Source of the DNA: Microbulbifer sp. HZ11
GTDB taxonomy: Bacteria; Pseudomonadota; Gammaproteobacteria; Pseudomonadales; Cellvibrionaceae
DNA: 64,000 nucleotides
Assembly (NCBI RefSeq): GCF_000708675.1
Contig: NZ_JELR01000001.1
Location: 682,001-746,000 of the forward strand
Direction of reading: 5' to 3'
In this document: positions 5,499 to 46,169 of the stretch, piece by piece
Layout of the letters: the number at the start of each line of letters is the position of its first letter
Numbering within the stretch: the first letter of the stretch is position 1
The notes under the pieces: model-generated
The model's database searches: none
What the model was told of the DNA's origin: nothing
What the model saw: the letters and a program-made list of their open reading frames with translations, nothing else
Translations under genes and position numbers: made by a program

Positions 5499-8400
5499 CT
5501 ACGCGGGTTCTGAGCGTCGCTCGGCGCGCTCCGCTTCGATCCCGAGCTTACCGACAAAATTTTCGCCTTCGGTGCTCGCCACCGTTTTGCCGAACAACTT
5601 CTGTACCACGACAAAAAATAGCGGGATAAAGAATATACCCAGCAGTGTGCCCACAATCATGCCACCGAGCACGCCGGTACCGATGGCCTGCTGCGCACCC
5701 GAGCCCGCGCCGGACGCAATTGCCAACGGCAACACACCAAGACCAAAGGCCAGCGAGGTCATAATGATCGGGCGCAGACGGTCGCGTACCGCCGCCATTG
5801 TGGCTTCAATCAGCTCCATACCGGCTTCCAGGTTCTGCTTGGCAAATTCCACGATCAAAATAGCGTTTTTACTGGTAAGCCCCACGGTCGTGAGCATCGC
5901 CACCTGAAAATAGATATCGCGTTCGAAACCGCGCAGGTTACTGGCGACGATCGCACCGAGAATACCCAATGGCGCCACCAGCAGCACGGCGGTGGGCACC
6001 GTCCAGCTTTCGTAGAGTGCCGCCAGGCACAGGAATACGATCAATACCGACAGCGCGTACAACAACGTGGTCTGCGACCCGGCCTGCTGCTCCTGATAAG
6101 ACAGTGCGGTCCATTCAAGGCCGAAGCCTTCCGGCAACTGGCTGACCAGACGCTCCATCTCTGCCATGGCGTCACCGGAGCTCACCCCAGGTGCACCCTG
6201 CCCCTGAATCTGCACAGCGGGCACGCCGTTATAGCGTTCAAGACGCGGCGAACCGTAATCCCAGTCAAACGTCGCGAAGGAAGACACCGGGACCATCTCA
6301 CCGTTACTGTTGCGCACTGACCATAGACGGAAGTCTTCCGGGTTCATACGGAACGGCGCATCGGCCTGTATGTACACGCGCTTGATCCGGCCGCGATCGA
6401 TAAAATCATCGATATATTGGCCACCCCAGGCAACCCCAAGGGTGTTGTTGATATCACCAATGGACACGCCGAGCGACGCCGCTTTGGCATTGTTAACCTT
6501 CAACTTGAATTGGGGCGTATCTTCCTGACCATTCGGGCGCACACCGGCCAGCAGAGGACTCTGGGCAGCCATACCCAGCAGCTGGTTGCGGGCATTGATC
6601 AGCGCCTCATGCCCCTGGTTCGCGTTATCCTTCAGATACATGGCGAAGCCGGCCGAGGTGCCCAATTCCGGCAAAGCGGGTGGAGAGAACGCATAGGCAA
6701 TGGCGTCCTTGATCTGACTCAGGGCACCCATACCGCGCATGGCGACGGCACCAGCCTGCTCCGATTCCTCCTCACGCTCGTCCCAGTCCTTCAGTTTGAT
6801 AAACGCCATGGCGTTATTCTGGCCACTTCCGGCAAAGCTGAAGCCCTGCACCGAGAAAACAGATTCAACCAGATCGGACTCATTATCGAGAAAGTGGTTT
6901 TCCAATTTCTCAACCGATTCCATAGTGCGTTCCTGGGTCGCGCCCACCGGTGTCTGTACCAGTGAGAAAAGCACACCCTGGTCTTCTTCCGGCAGGAAGG
7001 AACTCGGCGAGCGAACAAACAGAAACACCATCAACGCGCTCAGTAGTGCGAAGATCACCATGAAGCGCCCACTGCGAGCAAGAATGCCCCGCACACCGCG
7101 CTGATAGGATGCCGCGCTGCGATCGAAGTTGCGGTTAAACCAGCCGAAGAAGCCCTTTTTGGTACCGTGGTCACCGGGCTTCAACATGGTGGCGCAGAGC
7201 GCTGGGGTAAGTACGATGGCGACGATGACCGAGAAGGTCATGGCGGCGACAATCGTGGCAGAGAACTGGCGATAAATAATACCCGTCGAGCCATCCATAA
7301 ACGCCATGGGTACGAATACCGCGGACAACACAACACCAATGCCGATCAGAGCACCGGTAATCTGTTTCATGGATTTCTTGGTGGCTTCCTTCGCCGACAG
7401 CTTTTCTTCGTGCATCACACGTTCGACGTTTTCCACCACCACGATGGCGTCATCGACCAGCAGGCCGATCGCCAGCACCATCGCAAACATGGTGAGCATA
7501 TTCACCGAGAAACCGAGTACCGACAGAACGCCAAAAGTACCCAGCAGCACGACGGGAACCGCGATCGTGGGAATAATGGTAGCGCGCAGGTTCTGCAGGA
7601 ACAGCAACATCACCAGGAACACCAGAATAACCGCCTCAACCAGTGTCTGGATAACACCCTTGATAGACACCTCAACAAACGGCGTGGTGTCGAAAGGAAT
7701 AACCGTCTTCAGGCCCGTGGGGAAATTCGGCTCCAGTTCTGCCAGCTTTTGCTTCACCGCTTCGGCTGTTTCCAGCGCATTGGCACCGGTCGCCAGGGAG
7801 ATGGCCACACCGGTAGCGGGCGCGCGGTTGTAGCGGGTCAGGAAGTCGTAGCTTTCGGTACCCATTTCAACCCGCGCGACATCCCCCAGGCGCAATACCG
7901 ATCCATCGGAGTTTGCCCGCAACACGACATTGCGAAACTCTTCCGGTGTCTGCATGCGGCTTTGCGCGGTGATACTTGCGGTGAGTTGCTGCCCCTCTAC
8001 TGCCGGTGTCCCACCCAGGCTACCAATCGCAACTTGCGAGTTCTGGTTTTGTACCGAGGCGATGATGTCCGTAGGTGTCAGTTTATAAGCATCCAACTTG
8101 TTCGGGTCCAGCCAGATGCGCATGGCGTATTTGGACCCAAACACCTGAATGCTGCCCACACCAGGCACCCGGCTGAGGGGGTCTACCAGATTGGATACCA
8201 CATAATCGGCGATATCCTCTTTCTTCATACTGCCGTCAGTGGACACGAAACCCGCCACCATCAGGAAGCCCGCCCGGCCCTTGCCGACGGTGAGCCCCTG
8301 CCGCTGTACGATTTCCGGCAACAGCGGCATCGCCAGCTGCAGCTTGTTCTGAACCTGTACCTGGGCAATATCTGGGTCGGTACCATTGGCAAACGTCAGA

Positions 8401-8672
8401 GTCACTTCCGCAGTACCAATAGACTGACTGGTAGCCGACATGTACAGAAGGCCATCAAGGCCTTTCATGTTCTGCTCGATTACCTGAGTCACCGAGTCTT
8501 CGATGACTTTCGCCGAGGCACCGGGATAGGCACCAGTAATGGAGACCACCGGTGGCGCAATATCCGGGTATCGCTCTACCGGCAATTTACTGATCGCGAG
8601 ACTGCCAAACAGCATCACGACGATGGCGATCACCCAGGCAAAAATCGGGCGATCGATAAAGAAACCTGCCAT
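5499..8672 (-). CDS. RND multidrug efflux permease, HAE1/AcrB-MexB type
   Basis: Inner-membrane proton/drug antiporter of an AcrAB-TolC-like pump, 1057 residues, the normal size for HAE1 permeases. The start [17 protein letters not shown] is typical, as is the transmembrane-4 motif [16 protein letters not shown] with the two adjacent aspartates needed for proton relay, and TM10-12 near the C terminus. Two large periplasmic loops are present. It lies 5 bp downstream of the adaptor gene and shares its operon. No outer-membrane TolC-type gene is in the operon, so the pump must use a channel encoded elsewhere. Substrates cannot be predicted. Confidence 0.95.
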
Positions 8673-8677
8673 TTCAA

Positions 8678-9880
8678 TTACCCCTTGCTGGCGTCGTTCT
8701 GCGGCTTACCTGCAGTTTCATTTTTGGGCGCCGGCAGATCCACCGGTGCGGGGGCTGCCGCCTCTCCCGGATTTACCACCACCCCCGGGCGGATTTTCTG
8801 CAGACCTTCGACGATCACCCGATCACCGGCCTTCAAACCACTCTCCACCAACCAGTTGCTGCCAACGGTCTGGGAAACCTGAACCGGACGCACTTCCACA
8901 GTGTTGCCTTCGCCGACCACCATGGCAGTGGTATTACCCTTCGGATCCCGCGCAATACCCTGCTGTGGAACCAGTACCGCGTTGTCGCGCTGACCACTAC
9001 CTACCGATGCGCGCACGTACATGCCGGGCAACAGCAGGTTATCCGGGTTCGGCACCACTACCCGCAGGCGCACGCTGCCGGTGCTCGGGTCCACACTCAC
9101 TTCAGAGAATGCGAGTTTTCCAGCGTGGGGATAGGGACTGCCGTCTTCCAGCAGAATGGTTACGGGCAGGTCGTCGGTTTCCTGCATACTGCCCGTGGCC
9201 AGTGCCTTGCGTAGATTCAGCAATTCGCTGACCGACTGGGTGAGATCCACATAAATCGGGTCCAGCTGCTGGATTGTTGCCAACGGTGCCGCCTGATTGG
9301 TTGTCACCAGTGCGCCCTGAGTCACTGAGGAAATCCCGATGCGGCCGCTGATCGGTGCACTGATACGGGCAAAATCCAGCATCACCTTGGCGCGCTGAAC
9401 CGCGGCTTTCGCCGATGCGACATCTGCTTTCGCCTGTTGCAGTGCAGCAATGGCGGAGTCGTTGTCCTGCTTGCTCACTGCACCGGTCTTTACCAGTTCT
9501 TGGGTGCGATCTGCCTGCAGCTTCGAGACACTCAGTGTGGCCTGGGCACGCTCCAGAGAGGCTTTGGCACTGTCATAATCCGCCTGGTAGCGGGCATCAT
9601 CCAGCTGATACAGAGCACTGCCGGCTTCCACCAGCCCTCCTTCCTTGAACAGCTGATCCTTGACGATGCCATCCACCTGGGGACGAACTTCCGCCACCTT
9701 GAAGGCACTGGTGCGACCGGGAAGCTGTCGGGTCAATGTGACTGGCTGCGTATCCAGCGTGACGACGGTGACCTGCGGCGTGTGTCCCTGCATGGCGGGC
9801 TGTTTTTCTCCGCAGGCTGCTAGCAGCGCTACGGCAAGCAACAGACTGCCGGAGATCAACGACTTCTTTTTGTGCAACAT
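8678..9880 (-). CDS. RND efflux periplasmic adaptor lipoprotein, AcrA/MexA type
   Basis: Membrane fusion protein linking the RND permease to an outer-membrane channel, 400 residues. A lipoprotein signal ends at LLAAC with lipidated Cys23, followed by Gly-Glu-Lys. The order is barrel-sandwich half, long alpha-helical hairpin (Ala/Gln/Lys-rich, about residues 100-170), second half of the lipoyl domain, beta-barrel and membrane-proximal domain. ATG 9880 is chosen since AGAGG lies just upstream and it begins directly with the signal peptide; the frame stays open 36 bp more. Regulated by the operator and leader at 9881-10149. Confidence 0.93.
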
Positions 9881-10097: not shown

Positions 10098-10126
10098 ATT
10101 TAAATACATTCATGAATGAATATCAA
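10098..10126 (-). promoter_or_regulatory. Predicted promoter of the RND efflux operon
   Basis: On the minus strand TTGATA (10121-10126) and TTAAAT (10098-10103) are separated by 17 bp. One of the two palindromic operator units lies in the spacer, so a bound repressor would block polymerase. Confidence 0.5.
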
Positions 10127-10149
10127 CTATTTATTCATTCATGAATGTA
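10105..10149. promoter_or_regulatory. Inverted-repeat operator between the efflux operon and its TetR gene
   Basis: Perfect 18-bp inverted repeat: TACATTCATGAATGAATA at 10105-10122 and its reverse complement at 10132-10149, spacer 9 bp. Each arm itself contains the 12-bp palindrome CATTCATGAATG (10107-10118 and 10136-10147). The position, between divergent repressor and pump genes, is the standard one for AcrR/TtgR-type operators. Confidence 0.75.
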
Positions 10150-10217: not shown

Positions 10218-10895
10218 ATGGCCAAACGAAGCAAAGAAGACGCCCTGGAAACCCGCGAAAAGATTCTGGATGCAGCGGTGGTAGTCTTCGACCGCAGGGG
10301 CGTTTCTCGCCCCTCCCTAACCGAGATCGCCGAACTCGCGGGCGTTACCCGCGGCGCAGTCTATGGCCACTTCCAGAACAAGGCGGACCTGTTCAGCGCC
10401 CTCGCCGACCGCATTCAGCTGCCGGACGAGTCCCTGTGTCAGGCGCCCCATCAATCCTGCGATCCGCTGGGGGAACTGAGGAACCGCTGCCTGTTCATGT
10501 ACCGGGAGGTTATGTCGAACGAGCAATGGCACCGCATATTCGCCATCATTCTGCTGCGCTGCGAATGGGTCCCGGAAAATGGTGAGATTCACCAGCGCTG
10601 CAGCGAGGGTCACGCAGAAGGCACCGAGCGCTTGCGCACCCTGATCCAGGGGGCGGTGACTGTGGGGCAACTGCCCTCAGATCTGGATGTGGAGGTCGCG
10701 GTTCCGCTGGTACATGCCGGAATTATCGGTTTACTGCAGGAGTGGTTGATGAAGCCGGAGGCATTCAACATTGCCGAAGTCGGTGCCCGTCATGTAGAAG
10801 CGATGCTGGAAATGCTGAAAAATTCCGCCCACCTGAGGAAGAATCCCGCTGCGGCACCCTCAGAGTTGGCAGAAGCAAAGGTTGAATCTGAGTAA
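10218..10895 (+). CDS. TetR-family repressor of the RND pump, AcrR-like
   Basis: DNA-binding regulator of 225 residues. The N-terminal helix-turn-helix (LTEIAELAGVTRGAVYGHF) closely matches the AcrR/TtgR/MtrR type, and the C-terminal domain would bind drugs or hydrophobic ligands. By position it should repress the divergent RND operon and itself. ATG 10218 is chosen because it begins with MAKRSKEDALETREKIL, the usual AcrR-type start, with TCAGGA upstream; an in-frame ATG at 10116 would lie inside the operator. Confidence 0.88.
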   Translation: MAKRSKEDALETREKILDAAVVVFDRRGVSRPSLTEIAELAGVTRGAVYGHFQNKADLFSALADRIQLPDESLCQAPHQSCDPLGELRNRCLFMYREVMSNEQWHRIFAIILLRCEWVPENGEIHQRCSEGHAEGTERLRTLIQGAVTVGQLPSDLDVEVAVPLVHAGIIGLLQEWLMKPEAFNIAEVGARHVEAMLEMLKNSAHLRKNPAAAPSELAEAKVESE

Positions 10896-14374: not shown

Positions 14375-14719
14375 ATGAACCCGGTATCCGTTTTTAAATG
14401 TCTGGCCGATGACACTCGGCTGCGCAGCCTTTTGCTGATCGCCAGTGAGGGAGAGCTGTGCGTCTGTGAGTTGATGTGCGCACTGAACCAGAGCCAGCCC
14501 AAGATCTCTCGCCACCTGGCACAGCTCCGCAACTGCGAATTGCTGCGGGATGAACGTCGCGGCCAGTGGGTGTATTACCGTCTGGCGCCGGATCTTCCGA
14601 GCTGGGTAACGGAGGTGCTACAGCAGACGCTAAGCGGGAACACCGGCTTTATCCAACCTAACCAACAGGCATTGAACGAAATGCAGGACCGCCCCAGTGG
14701 TGCAAACAACTGCTGCTGA
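14375..14719 (+). CDS. arsR: ArsR-family arsenite-responsive repressor
   Basis: Winged-helix repressor of the ars operon, 114 residues. The As(III) site of the E. coli type is present: Cys29, Cys31 in ELCVCEL and Cys35. The recognition helix is QSQPKISRHLAQL. The protein ends in an extra Cys113-Cys114 pair, which might add a second thiol site; that is inference. GGAG lies 6 bp upstream of ATG 14375. First gene of arsR-arsC-acr3-arsH. Confidence 0.9.
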   Translation: MNPVSVFKCLADDTRLRSLLLIASEGELCVCELMCALNQSQPKISRHLAQLRNCELLRDERRGQWVYYRLAPDLPSWVTEVLQQTLSGNTGFIQPNQQALNEMQDRPSGANNCC

Positions 14720-14808
14720 CCGGTCAAACGAGTGTCCACGATTTTAATCTGACTGCGAAAGTCACCGCACTGAATATCCACTGACCTTCTCTACTAAGAG
14801 TACAACCG

Positions 14809-15285
14809 ATGAAAATTCTCTATATCTGCACCCACAATCGCTGCCGCAGCATTCTGAGCGAAGCGGTTACCAATCACCTCGGCCAGGGTCGCATCGAAGC
14901 CCGTAGCGCGGGCAGCCAGCCCAGTGGTGAGGTACACCCACTTTCCCTCAAATACCTCGCCGAGCAGGGTATTTCGACAGATGGCCTGAAAAGTCAGTCC
15001 TGGGACGAATTTGAAAGCTGGGTTCCAGACCTTGTAGTAACGGTATGCGACAGCGCCGCCGGTGAAGCCTGCCCGATCTGGCTGGGGGAATCGACCAAGG
15101 TCCATTGGGGGCTGGAAGATCCGTCAAAGCTTGAGGGCAGCGAAGAAGAGCTGGCACAGGCATTCAATCAGACGATCGATATTATCCAGAAACGGGTAGA
15201 AAGAATGCTCGAGCAGAACCTGGACAAAAAGTATGGCTCAGAACTTCGTGACGCCGCCCAGGCATTGATTCAAGGCGAAGAGTGA
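14809..15285 (+). CDS. arsC: Arsenate reductase, low-molecular-weight phosphatase (thioredoxin) type
   Basis: Reduces arsenate to arsenite in the cytoplasm. The P-loop Cys7-x5-Arg13 (CTHNRCRS) is of the LMW protein tyrosine phosphatase fold, and Cys80 and Cys88 complete the triad used in the Staphylococcus pI258 ArsC class, so recycling should be by thioredoxin. The 158-residue product has a slightly longer C terminus than that class. Second gene of the ars operon, followed 32 bp later by acr3. Confidence 0.9.
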   Translation: MKILYICTHNRCRSILSEAVTNHLGQGRIEARSAGSQPSGEVHPLSLKYLAEQGISTDGLKSQSWDEFESWVPDLVVTVCDSAAGEACPIWLGESTKVHWGLEDPSKLEGSEEELAQAFNQTIDIIQKRVERMLEQNLDKKYGSELRDAAQALIQGEE

Positions 15286-43616: not shown

Positions 43617-44183
43617 CTAGTACTGGCCGAGAAGAAATTCCTCGCCCTTACTTAGCAACCACAACTGGCACAGTTTTGCCGGTGGTTCATTGGGCTGGCG
43701 CGGCTCGGCCCAGTCGATCAATTGATAGTAAACATCCCGTGACATTCGCCCCTGAAGCCCATTGCGGACCTCCACGTATGGAACCGGTTGCGGAGGGTCG
43801 CCATAAGGTTTAAGCGAGAGTGGGTGTTCTTTGTCCAGCGGTATAACGTCTGCGGTATTGGTGGTGAGCAATATTTGGCCATCGACCCCTTCACCTTCCC
43901 GCGCCGCCTGAGTAATCAGAAAAGGCACATCTTCGACGCGGATACGCCACTTTTCCACGGGTGTGACAAGGTAATAGTGGCGCCCCTCCTTCTTAAGGAT
44001 ACTGGCAAACAGCTTCACCAATGGTTGGCGCTGTATCTCGGTCCCTTCGTGAATCCAACGGCCGTCCGCCCGGATCAACATGTCCATATCGCCACAGAGA
44101 TCAGGGTCCCAGGAGGACACCGGTGGGTGCCCCTGGAATTCGTCCTGCAGTTTCTGCAGCTGCTGGAAGAGCGGTTCAGCCAA
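43617..44183 (-). CDS. DUF1285-family protein
   Basis: Conserved cytoplasmic protein of unknown function, 188 residues, the usual DUF1285 length. Typical motifs are CGDMDMLIRADGRWIHEGTEI near 30-50 and PLVKLFASILKKEGRHYYLVTPVEKWRI after it. The frame is open to 44285, but that would overlap the tetR gene by more than 100 bp; a TTG at 44183 with GGGGAG 5 bp upstream gives the family length and only a short overlap with the tetR stop, so I chose it. Probably co-transcribed with the TetR gene. Confidence 0.75.
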   Translation of the reverse strand: MAEPLFQQLQKLQDEFQGHPPVSSWDPDLCGDMDMLIRADGRWIHEGTEIQRQPLVKLFASILKKEGRHYYLVTPVEKWRIRVEDVPFLITQAAREGEGVDGQILLTTNTADVIPLDKEHPLSLKPYGDPPQPVPYVEVRNGLQGRMSRDVYYQLIDWAEPRQPNEPPAKLCQLWLLSKGEEFLLGQY

Positions 44184-44874
44184 AACTGCTCCCCGGGGTG
44201 CTCGGGGTGCTCTGTGCCGGCTCGGAGGCCTGGGTTCCGCTGAGGTGACGGCGATTGGAGATATCACCAATATGGACACCCACATCCATGATGAACTCCA
44301 TCAGTCCCTCGCGATCTTCGATAACGTCGGCGAAAGACTTGGAGTGGTAGAGCTCAACGGCGCCCTGTACCAGCGCCCAATAGGTAGAGTAGTAATAGTA
44401 GGCGGGCACCTTCTTCAGAACCCCCTGCTCCATACGACGCTCAAACACCCGGTTAAGGGCGGAGGCATTGGAATTTCGCAGAGCATGCAGCTCGGCGATC
44501 ATCTCAGGCGCCAGGTTCAGGGCGATGATTTTCTCTTCCAGGCGCTGGAACAGGCGGTCGCGCGCCGGATCGGCCATACGAGACTCAAAATAGGCACGGG
44601 CCGGAGCGGTAATATCGCCCTGCTCGGCGGTGGCAACGGCGCTTTTCAGGCGTTCGGTGAGGGATTTCTCGTAGTCCATCAACAAGCGCATATAGATCTC
44701 GGTTTTGGAGATGAAATGCTTGTAGATGGTGCCTTTGCCGATATCGACCCGTTCAGCGATCTGCTCGACGGTAACCTTCTCTTCACCATGCTCGAGCAGC
44801 AGCTCCAACGCCGCATCCAGGATACGTTGCTCCCGCGCGCGGAACCGCTGAACCTTCTCTTTTGCCTTATCCAT
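44176..44874 (-). CDS. TetR-family regulator (second)
   Basis: 232-residue DNA-binding regulator. The helix-turn-helix VTVEQIAERVDIGKGTIYKHF is clear near 33-53; the C-terminal ligand domain does not point to a known subfamily, and the last 20 residues are a Ser/Pro/Thr-rich tail. ATG 44874 is preferred, since an upstream ATG at 44925 lies inside the palindrome at 44919-44937. That palindrome shares its 12-bp core with the RND operator, so this gene may be autoregulated or controlled by the pump repressor. Divergent from tesB. Confidence 0.85.
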   Translation of the reverse strand: MDKAKEKVQRFRAREQRILDAALELLLEHGEEKVTVEQIAERVDIGKGTIYKHFISKTEIYMRLLMDYEKSLTERLKSAVATAEQGDITAPARAYFESRMADPARDRLFQRLEEKIIALNLAPEMIAELHALRNSNASALNRVFERRMEQGVLKKVPAYYYYSTYWALVQGAVELYHSKSFADVIEDREGLMEFIMDVGVHIGDISNRRHLSGTQASEPAQSTPSTPGSSFG

Positions 44875-44918
44875 ACTTCCGACCTTAGCTGTCCGTGAAT
44901 GTGGAGACTGAAATTGAC

Positions 44919-44937
44919 TATTCATTCATGAATGATA
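44919..44937. promoter_or_regulatory. TetR-type palindrome upstream of the second tetR gene
   Basis: TATTCATTCATGAATGATA contains a perfect 14-bp palindrome TCATTCATGAATGA (44922-44935). Its core CATTCATGAATG is identical to the units at 10107-10118 and 10136-10147. The rest of 44938-45320 is AT-richer and holds no gene I can support; it must contain the tesB promoter. Confidence 0.6.
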
Positions 44938-45320
44938 GGCAATTCCCCCGGAATGGAAAAGGATTTCCCAAATTCTACAAGGGACTTTGCGCCTAATTGA
45001 CAGGAAAAACCCGCGCCAGTAGCACATTTTCCGCAGTTTGGCGGGTATCACACGGTGCCACTCCCGTTTCCTCTCATTAAATTTAGCGCTTATAGTTCAG
45101 TCACACTGATCTTTTTTCGTTCAAAACCGATGAATCGCCGGTGGCCCGGCACGATAACGGAGCAGGTGCCGACAGGGAAAATCCGTAAGACAAGGAAATC
45201 AATTTTGATCAGTTCGGCAATGGCCATTCTGGACGCAATTGCTAATATTTCCGGTCTGCCAATTGCGAGAGCACTAGGCGACACATCAAACAACCCCATT
45301 CAGACAGGCAGTAACCGCCC

Positions 45321-46169
45321 ATGTTGGAAAAGTTAAGCAAGCTCCTTGATGTCGAACAACTGGATACCAATCTGTTCCGTAGCCGGGAGCATGTCGAAAA
45401 CTACCGCAAAGTGTTATTCGGTGGCCAGGTACTCGGGCAGGCACTGATGGCGGCCGCGCGGACCGTTGAGGATCGCCTACCTCACTCTTTACACGCCTAC
45501 TTTCTGCGGCCGGGCAGTAGTGAGAAGCCTGTCATATACGACGTCGATCCCATCCGCGACGGCGGTAGCTTTACCACTCGCCGAATAGTTGCCCGCCAGA
45601 ACGGCAAAGCCATCTTTAATATGTCCGCCTCCTTCCAGATCGAAGAACCGGGATTTGATCACCAGGCGGATATGCCCATTGATGGACTGGTTCAGCCGGA
45701 AGAGCTGAAGAACACCCAGCAGCTTGCAGAAGAGGCCGGTATGCAAGGCGCCGCCCAGAACCAACGCAGGTACATGGTGGACTTTCGCCCTATCGACCCA
45801 ATGAGCTATTTTGACAATGCCGTGCGAGAGCCTCGCTGTATGTTCTGGTTCAAAGTGGATAGCGAGTTGACCGATAGCCCCATCGAGCACCGCAGCGCCC
45901 TATGCTACGCCTCAGATATGGCGCTGTTAGGCACCGCTCTGCAGCCACACCCTATCAGCCTGTTCGATCCGCACCTGATGCCCGCCAGTCTGGATCACGC
46001 GATGTGGTTCCACCGTCCCTTTCGCGCGGACGACTGGCTCCTCTACGTAACCGACAGCCCCTCTGCCAGCGGCGCCCGTGGTTACTGCCGCGGCCAGATA
46101 TTCTCGCGGGACGGAAAGCTAGTTGCGTCTACCACCCAGGAAGGGTTGATCCGCAAGATCAATAAGTAA
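45321..46169 (+). CDS. tesB: Acyl-CoA thioesterase II
   Basis: Hydrolyses acyl-CoA esters, 282 residues, a double hot-dog protein of the TesB family. Recognisable pieces are FGGQVLGQALMAAARTV near residues 32-50, HSLHAYFLRPG, and the C-terminal YCRGQIFSRDGKLVASTTQEG. It is of the bacterial TesB length and stands alone, divergent from the TetR gene. Regulation by that TetR is possible but not shown. Confidence 0.92.
   Translation: MLEKLSKLLDVEQLDTNLFRSREHVENYRKVLFGGQVLGQALMAAARTVEDRLPHSLHAYFLRPGSSEKPVIYDVDPIRDGGSFTTRRIVARQNGKAIFNMSASFQIEEPGFDHQADMPIDGLVQPEELKNTQQLAEEAGMQGAAQNQRRYMVDFRPIDPMSYFDNAVREPRCMFWFKVDSELTDSPIEHRSALCYASDMALLGTALQPHPISLFDPHLMPASLDHAMWFHRPFRADDWLLYVTDSPSASGARGYCRGQIFSRDGKLVASTTQEGLIRKINK

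Follow-up and report, generated by a model that had tools for sequence, protein, structure and literature searches.

Does an identical 12-bp core in front of two unlinked TetR-family genes mean that one regulator reads both promoters? The question is raised by a 64,000-nucleotide stretch of the Microbulbifer sp. HZ11 genome (here called the window), in which CATTCATGAATG is found at the control region of an RND efflux pump and again upstream of a second TetR gene, tetR2, which is joined to a DUF1285 gene. A first-pass annotation took the matching 12-mers as a sign of cross-regulation, or of a shared regulator, between the pump and the tetR2-DUF1285 unit. Here, the copies of the core were followed through the window, the genome, the genus, and genomes outside it, together with the regulators that stand beside them.

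The 12-bp core is shared by two TetR promoters far beyond chance

At the efflux pump, the 12-mer lies exactly where it had been reported, at positions 10107-10118 and 10136-10147 of the window, and the 18-bp inverted repeat described around the two copies is perfect (arms 10105-10122 and 10132-10149, spacer of 9 nt). The third copy does precede another TetR gene, within a perfect 14-bp palindrome as had been noted (TCATTCATGAATGA, 44922-44935), but its true position is 44923-44934, the annotated 44924-44935 being off by one. Allowing one mismatch still gave these three sites only, compared with a mean of 0.16 and a maximum of 1 in 100 dinucleotide-preserving shuffles of the window at the same tolerance. 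A scan of the whole genome (4.22 Mb) returned four exact copies and one copy with a single mismatch, versus none for the reversed pattern, and the 12-mer is therefore not frequent at unrelated places. The statement that it occurs at just these two TetR promoters nearly holds, the exception being the fourth exact copy (C1:1736563), which lies on a ybgC/tolQ-like junction and covers the start codon of tolQ (gene names assigned from the look of the translations). In a relative (G021), the 12-mer likewise overlaps a ybgC-like frame at its end and a tolQ-like frame at its start. This copy was considered as a further operator and rejected because of its overlap with the junction and its presence at the same place in G021; it is likely a coding coincidence.

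Across 48 genomes of the genus, our own included, we counted 61 exact copies of CATTCATGAATG versus 10 of the reversed control (table summed by hand). The tetR2 gene is preceded by 43 of them and the pump tetR by 9 (in seven genomes), so that 52 of the 61 stand before the two TetR genes. The 9 copies elsewhere are close in number to the control count of 10, which places the 12-mer at background outside the two TetR promoters; eight of them lie inside or at frames that span 100 codons or more, and the remaining one (G021, C1:318149) is outside any such frame. The 48 genomes examined outside the genus held 8 exact copies versus 9 controls. Overall, the two promoters do share the 12-mer, to a degree far beyond chance.

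A putative paired operator at the efflux pump

The pump TetR gene (10218-10895, forward strand) encodes a member of the AcrR/TtgR/MtrR subfamily (PF08361, 3.8e-18; PF00440, 2.4e-14) in which TetR_N and MAATS-type C-terminal domains are both present and the recognition helix reads TRGAVYGHF. Its solved relatives include TtgR (8v90, 4.8e-37, the best match), AcrR (2qop, 3.3e-31), and MtrR (7jnp, 7.3e-31). Compared with the named NCBIfam equivalogs, it scored 155.5 bits for PRK10668 AcrR (cut-off, 271) and 148.7 bits for MtrR (cut-off, 280), failing both; judged from its sequence, it is a subfamily relative and neither AcrR nor MtrR proper. The RND pump genes adjoin it, with an acrA-type periplasmic adaptor gene running divergently (8678-9880, reverse strand, assigned by profile matches) and an acrB-type RND permease gene beyond (5499-8672, reverse strand, TIGR00915 above its cut-off). 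The pump TetR was detected in 43 of the 48 genus genomes at 39 to 100% identity, and since a divergent acrA-type frame, 59 to 100% identical, stands beside it in 43 of 43, all of these represent one and the same locus. Elsewhere in the window, at 14375-15285, an ArsR-type regulator frame is followed by an arsenate-reductase-like frame, to go by the look of their translations.

The putative operator region (10105-10149) is formed by the 18-bp repeat, which is the longest perfect one of the nine listed inverted pairs in the window with no more than 60 nt between arms. Site 1 (10107-10118) lies inside the 17-nt spacer of a putative acrAB promoter assigned by eye (10098-10126, reverse strand; -35 TTGATA at 10121-10126 and -10 TTAAAT at 10098-10103), and site 2 (10136-10147), also an exact match, lies on the tetR side. 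The automatic promoter scan, which demands an A at the second -10 position, found none in this stretch. Of the 43 genus pump tetR genes, 21 have the string ATATCAA upstream. Perfect 18-bp arms were seen in this genome only among the 43 upstream regions, the next operator-like repeat being the 16-bp one of G026. The four nearest relatives of the pump TetR (G021, G026, G002, and G001) all have an exact site 1, and the left half of site 2 is variable in near relatives, reading TTCATGAGTGAATG in G021, TTCACCGATGAATG in G002, and TTCATGCGTGAATG in G001. The outer halves of the operator read TGAATGTA here, the same as in the operators of AcrR and TtgR; this string was found upstream of 9 of the 43 genus pump tetR genes and of none of the 48 tetR2 genes, and hence the likeness to those known operators is not genus-wide. 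The pump core itself drifts, being exact in 7 of the 43 genomes.

A conserved palindrome lies over the putative tetR2 promoter

The second regulator gene, tetR2 (44176-44874, reverse strand; PF00440, 1.1e-14; recognition helix IGKGTIYKHF), was present in all 48 genus genomes examined. A DUF1285 gene lies 3' of tetR2 and, in its longest ATG frame, overlaps it (43617-44285, reverse strand; PF06938, 8e-31; PF21028, 1.3e-20); the two adjoin in 22 of 22 compared loci holding tetR2, and DUF1285 structures are treated in the excerpted text of PMC2954208. A divergent tesB-type acyl-CoA thioesterase II gene (45321-46169, forward strand; PF02551 and PF13622) begins 387 bp from the core. Among solved structures, TetR2 has a strong match only to 7w2o (E 9.5e-64) and to six more entries of identical sequence, and no paper on this structure was recognizable among the matches listed.

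The putative tetR2 operator (44913-44943) is nested, with outer arms ATTGNCTAT-N13-ATAGNCAAT flanking the core (44923-44934), an exact copy of which precedes tetR2 in 43 of the 48 genus genomes. A putative promoter (44932-44959, reverse strand; TTTCCA, 16 nt, TATCAT) overlaps the operator with its -10 box. The promoter scan found one such hit versus 0.9 expected by chance; both boxes are kept across the genus, the -10 reading TATCAT or TATTAT in the left half of the site and TTTCCA standing 16 nt upstream. The genus keeps a 40-bp block at tetR2, GAATTGCCTATCATTCATGAATGRATAGTCAATTTCAGTC, with hardly any change, and TTGCCTAT is found upstream of tetR2 in 48 of 48 genomes. Information content averages about 1.9 to 2.0 bits per column over the arms and core, compared with 0.35 upstream and 0.52 over most of the -35/-10 spacer. 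As seen, a conserved palindrome lies over tetR2's own promoter.

The arms single out this place in the genome, the tetR2 site being the sole one that matches them with no mismatch. As a 29-nt pattern, they have one exact copy in 42 of the 48 genus genomes, a second copy in none, and no exact copy in the 48 genomes examined beyond the genus; the six genus genomes without exact arms carry one or two mismatches. Core and arms are thus conserved about equally (43/48 and 42/48). The five genomes without an exact core are G015, G044, G006, G043, and G007, the last of which also has no exact arms: there, the arms are retained as TTGCCTA and TAGGCAA around a destroyed core, in a genome that is 80% complete and therefore weak ground. 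A wide regulon was looked for in this genome with three patterns and rejected. The 27-nt tetR2 operator had no place within three mismatches other than the tetR2 promoter; the 18-nt pump arm, at up to three mismatches, gave one extra place with three (controls, one and zero); and the outer arms, at up to two, gave one extra place with two (controls, one and one).

The core contains an in-frame ATG that would lengthen TetR2 by 17 residues (44875-44925, reverse strand; ORF 44176-44925, 249 aa), and the block at tetR2 might be conserved mainly as a promoter with an N-terminal coding extension, not as an operator. The frame is indeed open upstream here, and frames of the genus orthologs range from 239 to 264 aa, to which C-terminal differences contribute. 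However, the upstream ATG is missing from G006, G043, and G007 while the arms remain, 38 of 48 genomes share AAGGTCGGAAGTATG ahead of the start at 44874, and in Pseudomonas orthologs the match opens with an ATG that corresponds to 44874. A coding extension is, on these grounds, a very improbable account of the block.

The tetR2 site does not depend on the pump TetR

Several observations would fit a single TetR protein binding both sites and linking the pump to tetR2-DUF1285. The two promoters carry identical 12-mers with a single other exact copy in the genome, and the loci are about 34-35 kb apart both here and in relatives (G021 and G018 among them). Furthermore, the right half of the tetR2 site (TGAATGAATAG) equals each inner half of the pump operator here (TGAATGAATA), and two mismatches separate the 18-nt pump arm from the tetR2 site, so that crosstalk is physically plausible in this species. 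Against such a link stand the genomes in which one partner is missing. Five genus genomes have no detected pump TetR (G008, G028, G031, G032, and G040; best match, E 1e-8 to 1e-6) and no close acrA (best identity, 34 to 36%, versus 100% in our genome, G000, and 94% in G021, tested alongside). The tetR2 core is exact in all five, showing no dependence of the site on the presence of the pump TetR. Conversely, G080, which belongs to another family and is 89% complete, has ATACATTCATGAATGTAT upstream of a related pump TetR (37% identity), and no TetR2 ortholog was detected in this incomplete genome (best match, E 5.8e-7). Exact cores stand at both promoters together in only 7 of 43 genomes, the flanks differ, and tetR2-type arms were found at none of the 43 pump promoters (best, 4 to 7 mismatches of 14).

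The pump core varies instead with the recognition helix of its own regulator. Where the helix reads TRGA[VI]YGHF (n = 32), the 260 bp upstream contain the core with at most one mismatch in 28, at most two in 31, and at most three in all 32 genomes, whereas the corresponding numbers with a changed helix (n = 11) are 0, 0, and 1 (G036). Fisher's test of the pump core at up to two mismatches against helix class gave a p of 2e-9, with the classes drawn post hoc, kinship uncorrected, and the counts not independent since the genomes are related. Plain letter shuffles of the pump upstream regions reached one mismatch in 0.09% and two mismatches in 1.0% of trials. The tetR2 core, in contrast, is exact in 30 of 32 genomes with TRGA[VI]YGHF and still in 8 of the 11 whose pump helix is changed, and therefore does not track that helix. 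The genomes with a changed helix are G042, G029, G004, G003, G014, G036, G043, G006, G044, G010, and G009; their pump TetR still lies beside acrA, and their helices, such as TRDSLHSHF, SHGAVTDHF, and TRGSVYDHF, come with no CATTCATGAATG-like operator within two mismatches. Possibly, these 11 proteins have changed their specificity or lost DNA binding.

The proposal of cross-regulation or a shared regulator was thus not borne out: the tetR2 site survives without the pump TetR and with a changed pump helix, the pump core drifts, the flanks of the two sites are different, and G080 has the core at its pump TetR with no TetR2 ortholog detected. We regard a common regulator of the two promoters as quite unlikely.

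TetR2 as the probable reader of its own promoter

TetR2 keeps one and the same recognition helix throughout the 48 genus genomes and, outside them, at all 66 named loci. The core is absent from the tetR2 promoters outside the genus, with 3 to 5 mismatches at best in the 66 loci (mostly Pseudomonas, 300 bp upstream) and 3 to 6 at best in 13 further outgroup promoters; for the arms, the best matches have 3 to 7 mismatches of 14. Operator and helix therefore do not covary across TetR2 orthologs, the same helix occurring outside the genus with no such operator, and what points to TetR2 as the binder is the position of the site and its single-copy conservation. The conserved blocks of Pseudomonas were also looked at by eye for a tetR2 operator, a candidate that was rejected, as no palindrome was seen that the genus site shares. 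Many Pseudomonas tetR2 promoters (110 bp upstream) have conserved blocks of their own, GGATGATCCGTGCAATTT... or GGGATAATCCC, which on visual inspection do not resemble the Microbulbifer operator.

A TetR2 helix that stays unchanged in orthologs whose promoters have no site would also be expected if a third, genus-wide regulator read the tetR2 promoter and TetR2 controlled other targets. The state of G007, with its core destroyed and its arms kept, suggests in addition that core and arms may have different readers. However, the full operator is single in the genome, as for an autoregulator and less expected for a regulator encoded elsewhere, and the near-equal conservation of core and arms does not set the two apart. 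A third regulator is, in our estimate, unlikely.

It could also be that two TetR proteins read the tetR2-DUF1285 promoter, TetR2 on ATTGNCTAT/ATAGNCAAT and another, TGAATG-reading TetR on the core; we give this arrangement a slim chance. The reader of the inner core would possibly be the pump TetR in this species and another genus-wide TetR in other species. If so, the inducer of the pump would also tune an uncharacterized DUF1285 unit beside an acyl-CoA thioesterase gene.

Residues that may set the specificity of the two proteins can be compared through MtrR, whose DNA contacts are R44, G45, Y48, W49, and H50 in the excerpted text of PMC8053128. At these positions, our own alignment places R, G, Y, G, and H in the pump TetR and K, G, Y, K, and H in TetR2, and the specificity of the two is therefore expected to be similar but not equal. 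Taken together, we consider it probable that two distinct local operators of the TetR family lie in the window and use one TGAATG/CATTCA half-site, the pump TetR acting on the first and TetR2 repressing its own unit on the second. The two operators would share the core because the two proteins use a similar half-site, and the best reading of the 12-mer, as far as sequence comparison can tell, is such similar half-site use with no regulatory link. At the pump, the TetR protein would bind the two palindromes at 10105-10149, one facing acrAB and the other facing its own gene, and repress both divergent units until a pump substrate frees it. At the second locus, the operator at 44913-44943 would cover the -10 box and the probable start region of tetR2-DUF1285, through which TetR2 most likely autorepresses the unit.

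An identical 12-mer at two repressor promoters, even beyond chance, can thus still mean no link, and genomes in which one partner is missing provide the test. The analysis also yields a sharply defined, single-copy putative operator for tetR2, beside the DUF1285 gene. A TGAATG or TTGNCTAT half-site in the motif of the P. aeruginosa TetR2 ortholog would support TetR2 as the binder.

Comparison with known TetR operators

A literature search on Microbulbifer TetR efflux operators gave nothing on the present operators among the matches listed. Among the 11 papers listed as containing the 12-mer or a similar string, PMC5666138 was the sole one with an efflux pump title, and its string lies in a PCR primer. 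The closest parallels to the pump locus come from other genera. In the excerpt of PMC10597343, the E. coli AcrR operator of acrAB is given as TACATACATTTGTGAATGTATGTA; as here, a TetR of the same subfamily stands beside an RND pump, with a TGAATGTA half-site and a palindrome in the control region. Unlike that operator as presented there, the pump operator of Microbulbifer sp. HZ11 has a pair of palindromes at a distance of 29 bp that are linked within a perfect 18-bp inverted repeat. The TtgR operator oligonucleotide of Pseudomonas putida, TATTTACAAACAACCATGAATGTAAGTATATTCC, with ...CATGAATGTAAGTATATTCC, appears in the excerpt of PMC4538802; its TATTTA...CATGAATGTAA is also present in site 2, and it forms one pseudopalindrome where two near-perfect palindromes are found here. 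At the protein level, the pump TetR has a glycine where the recognition helices of TtgR and MtrR have a tryptophan. As for the regulatory outcome, SmeT represses both smeT and smeDEF from a single 28-bp pseudopalindromic region by blocking RNA polymerase, according to the excerpted text of PMC3128119. The likeness to the pump locus as proposed here lies in the joint repression of pump and regulator.

For the tetR2 locus, the parallel is PA3973, a P. aeruginosa TetR with palindromes over its own -10 box that controls acyl-CoA dehydrogenase and thioesterase genes, as described in the excerpt of PMC9736018. The palindrome given there, TGAATCCGGATTCA, differs from the tetR2 site, and orthology to tetR2 is not implied; as a layout, PA3973 offers a model for the autorepression proposed for tetR2.
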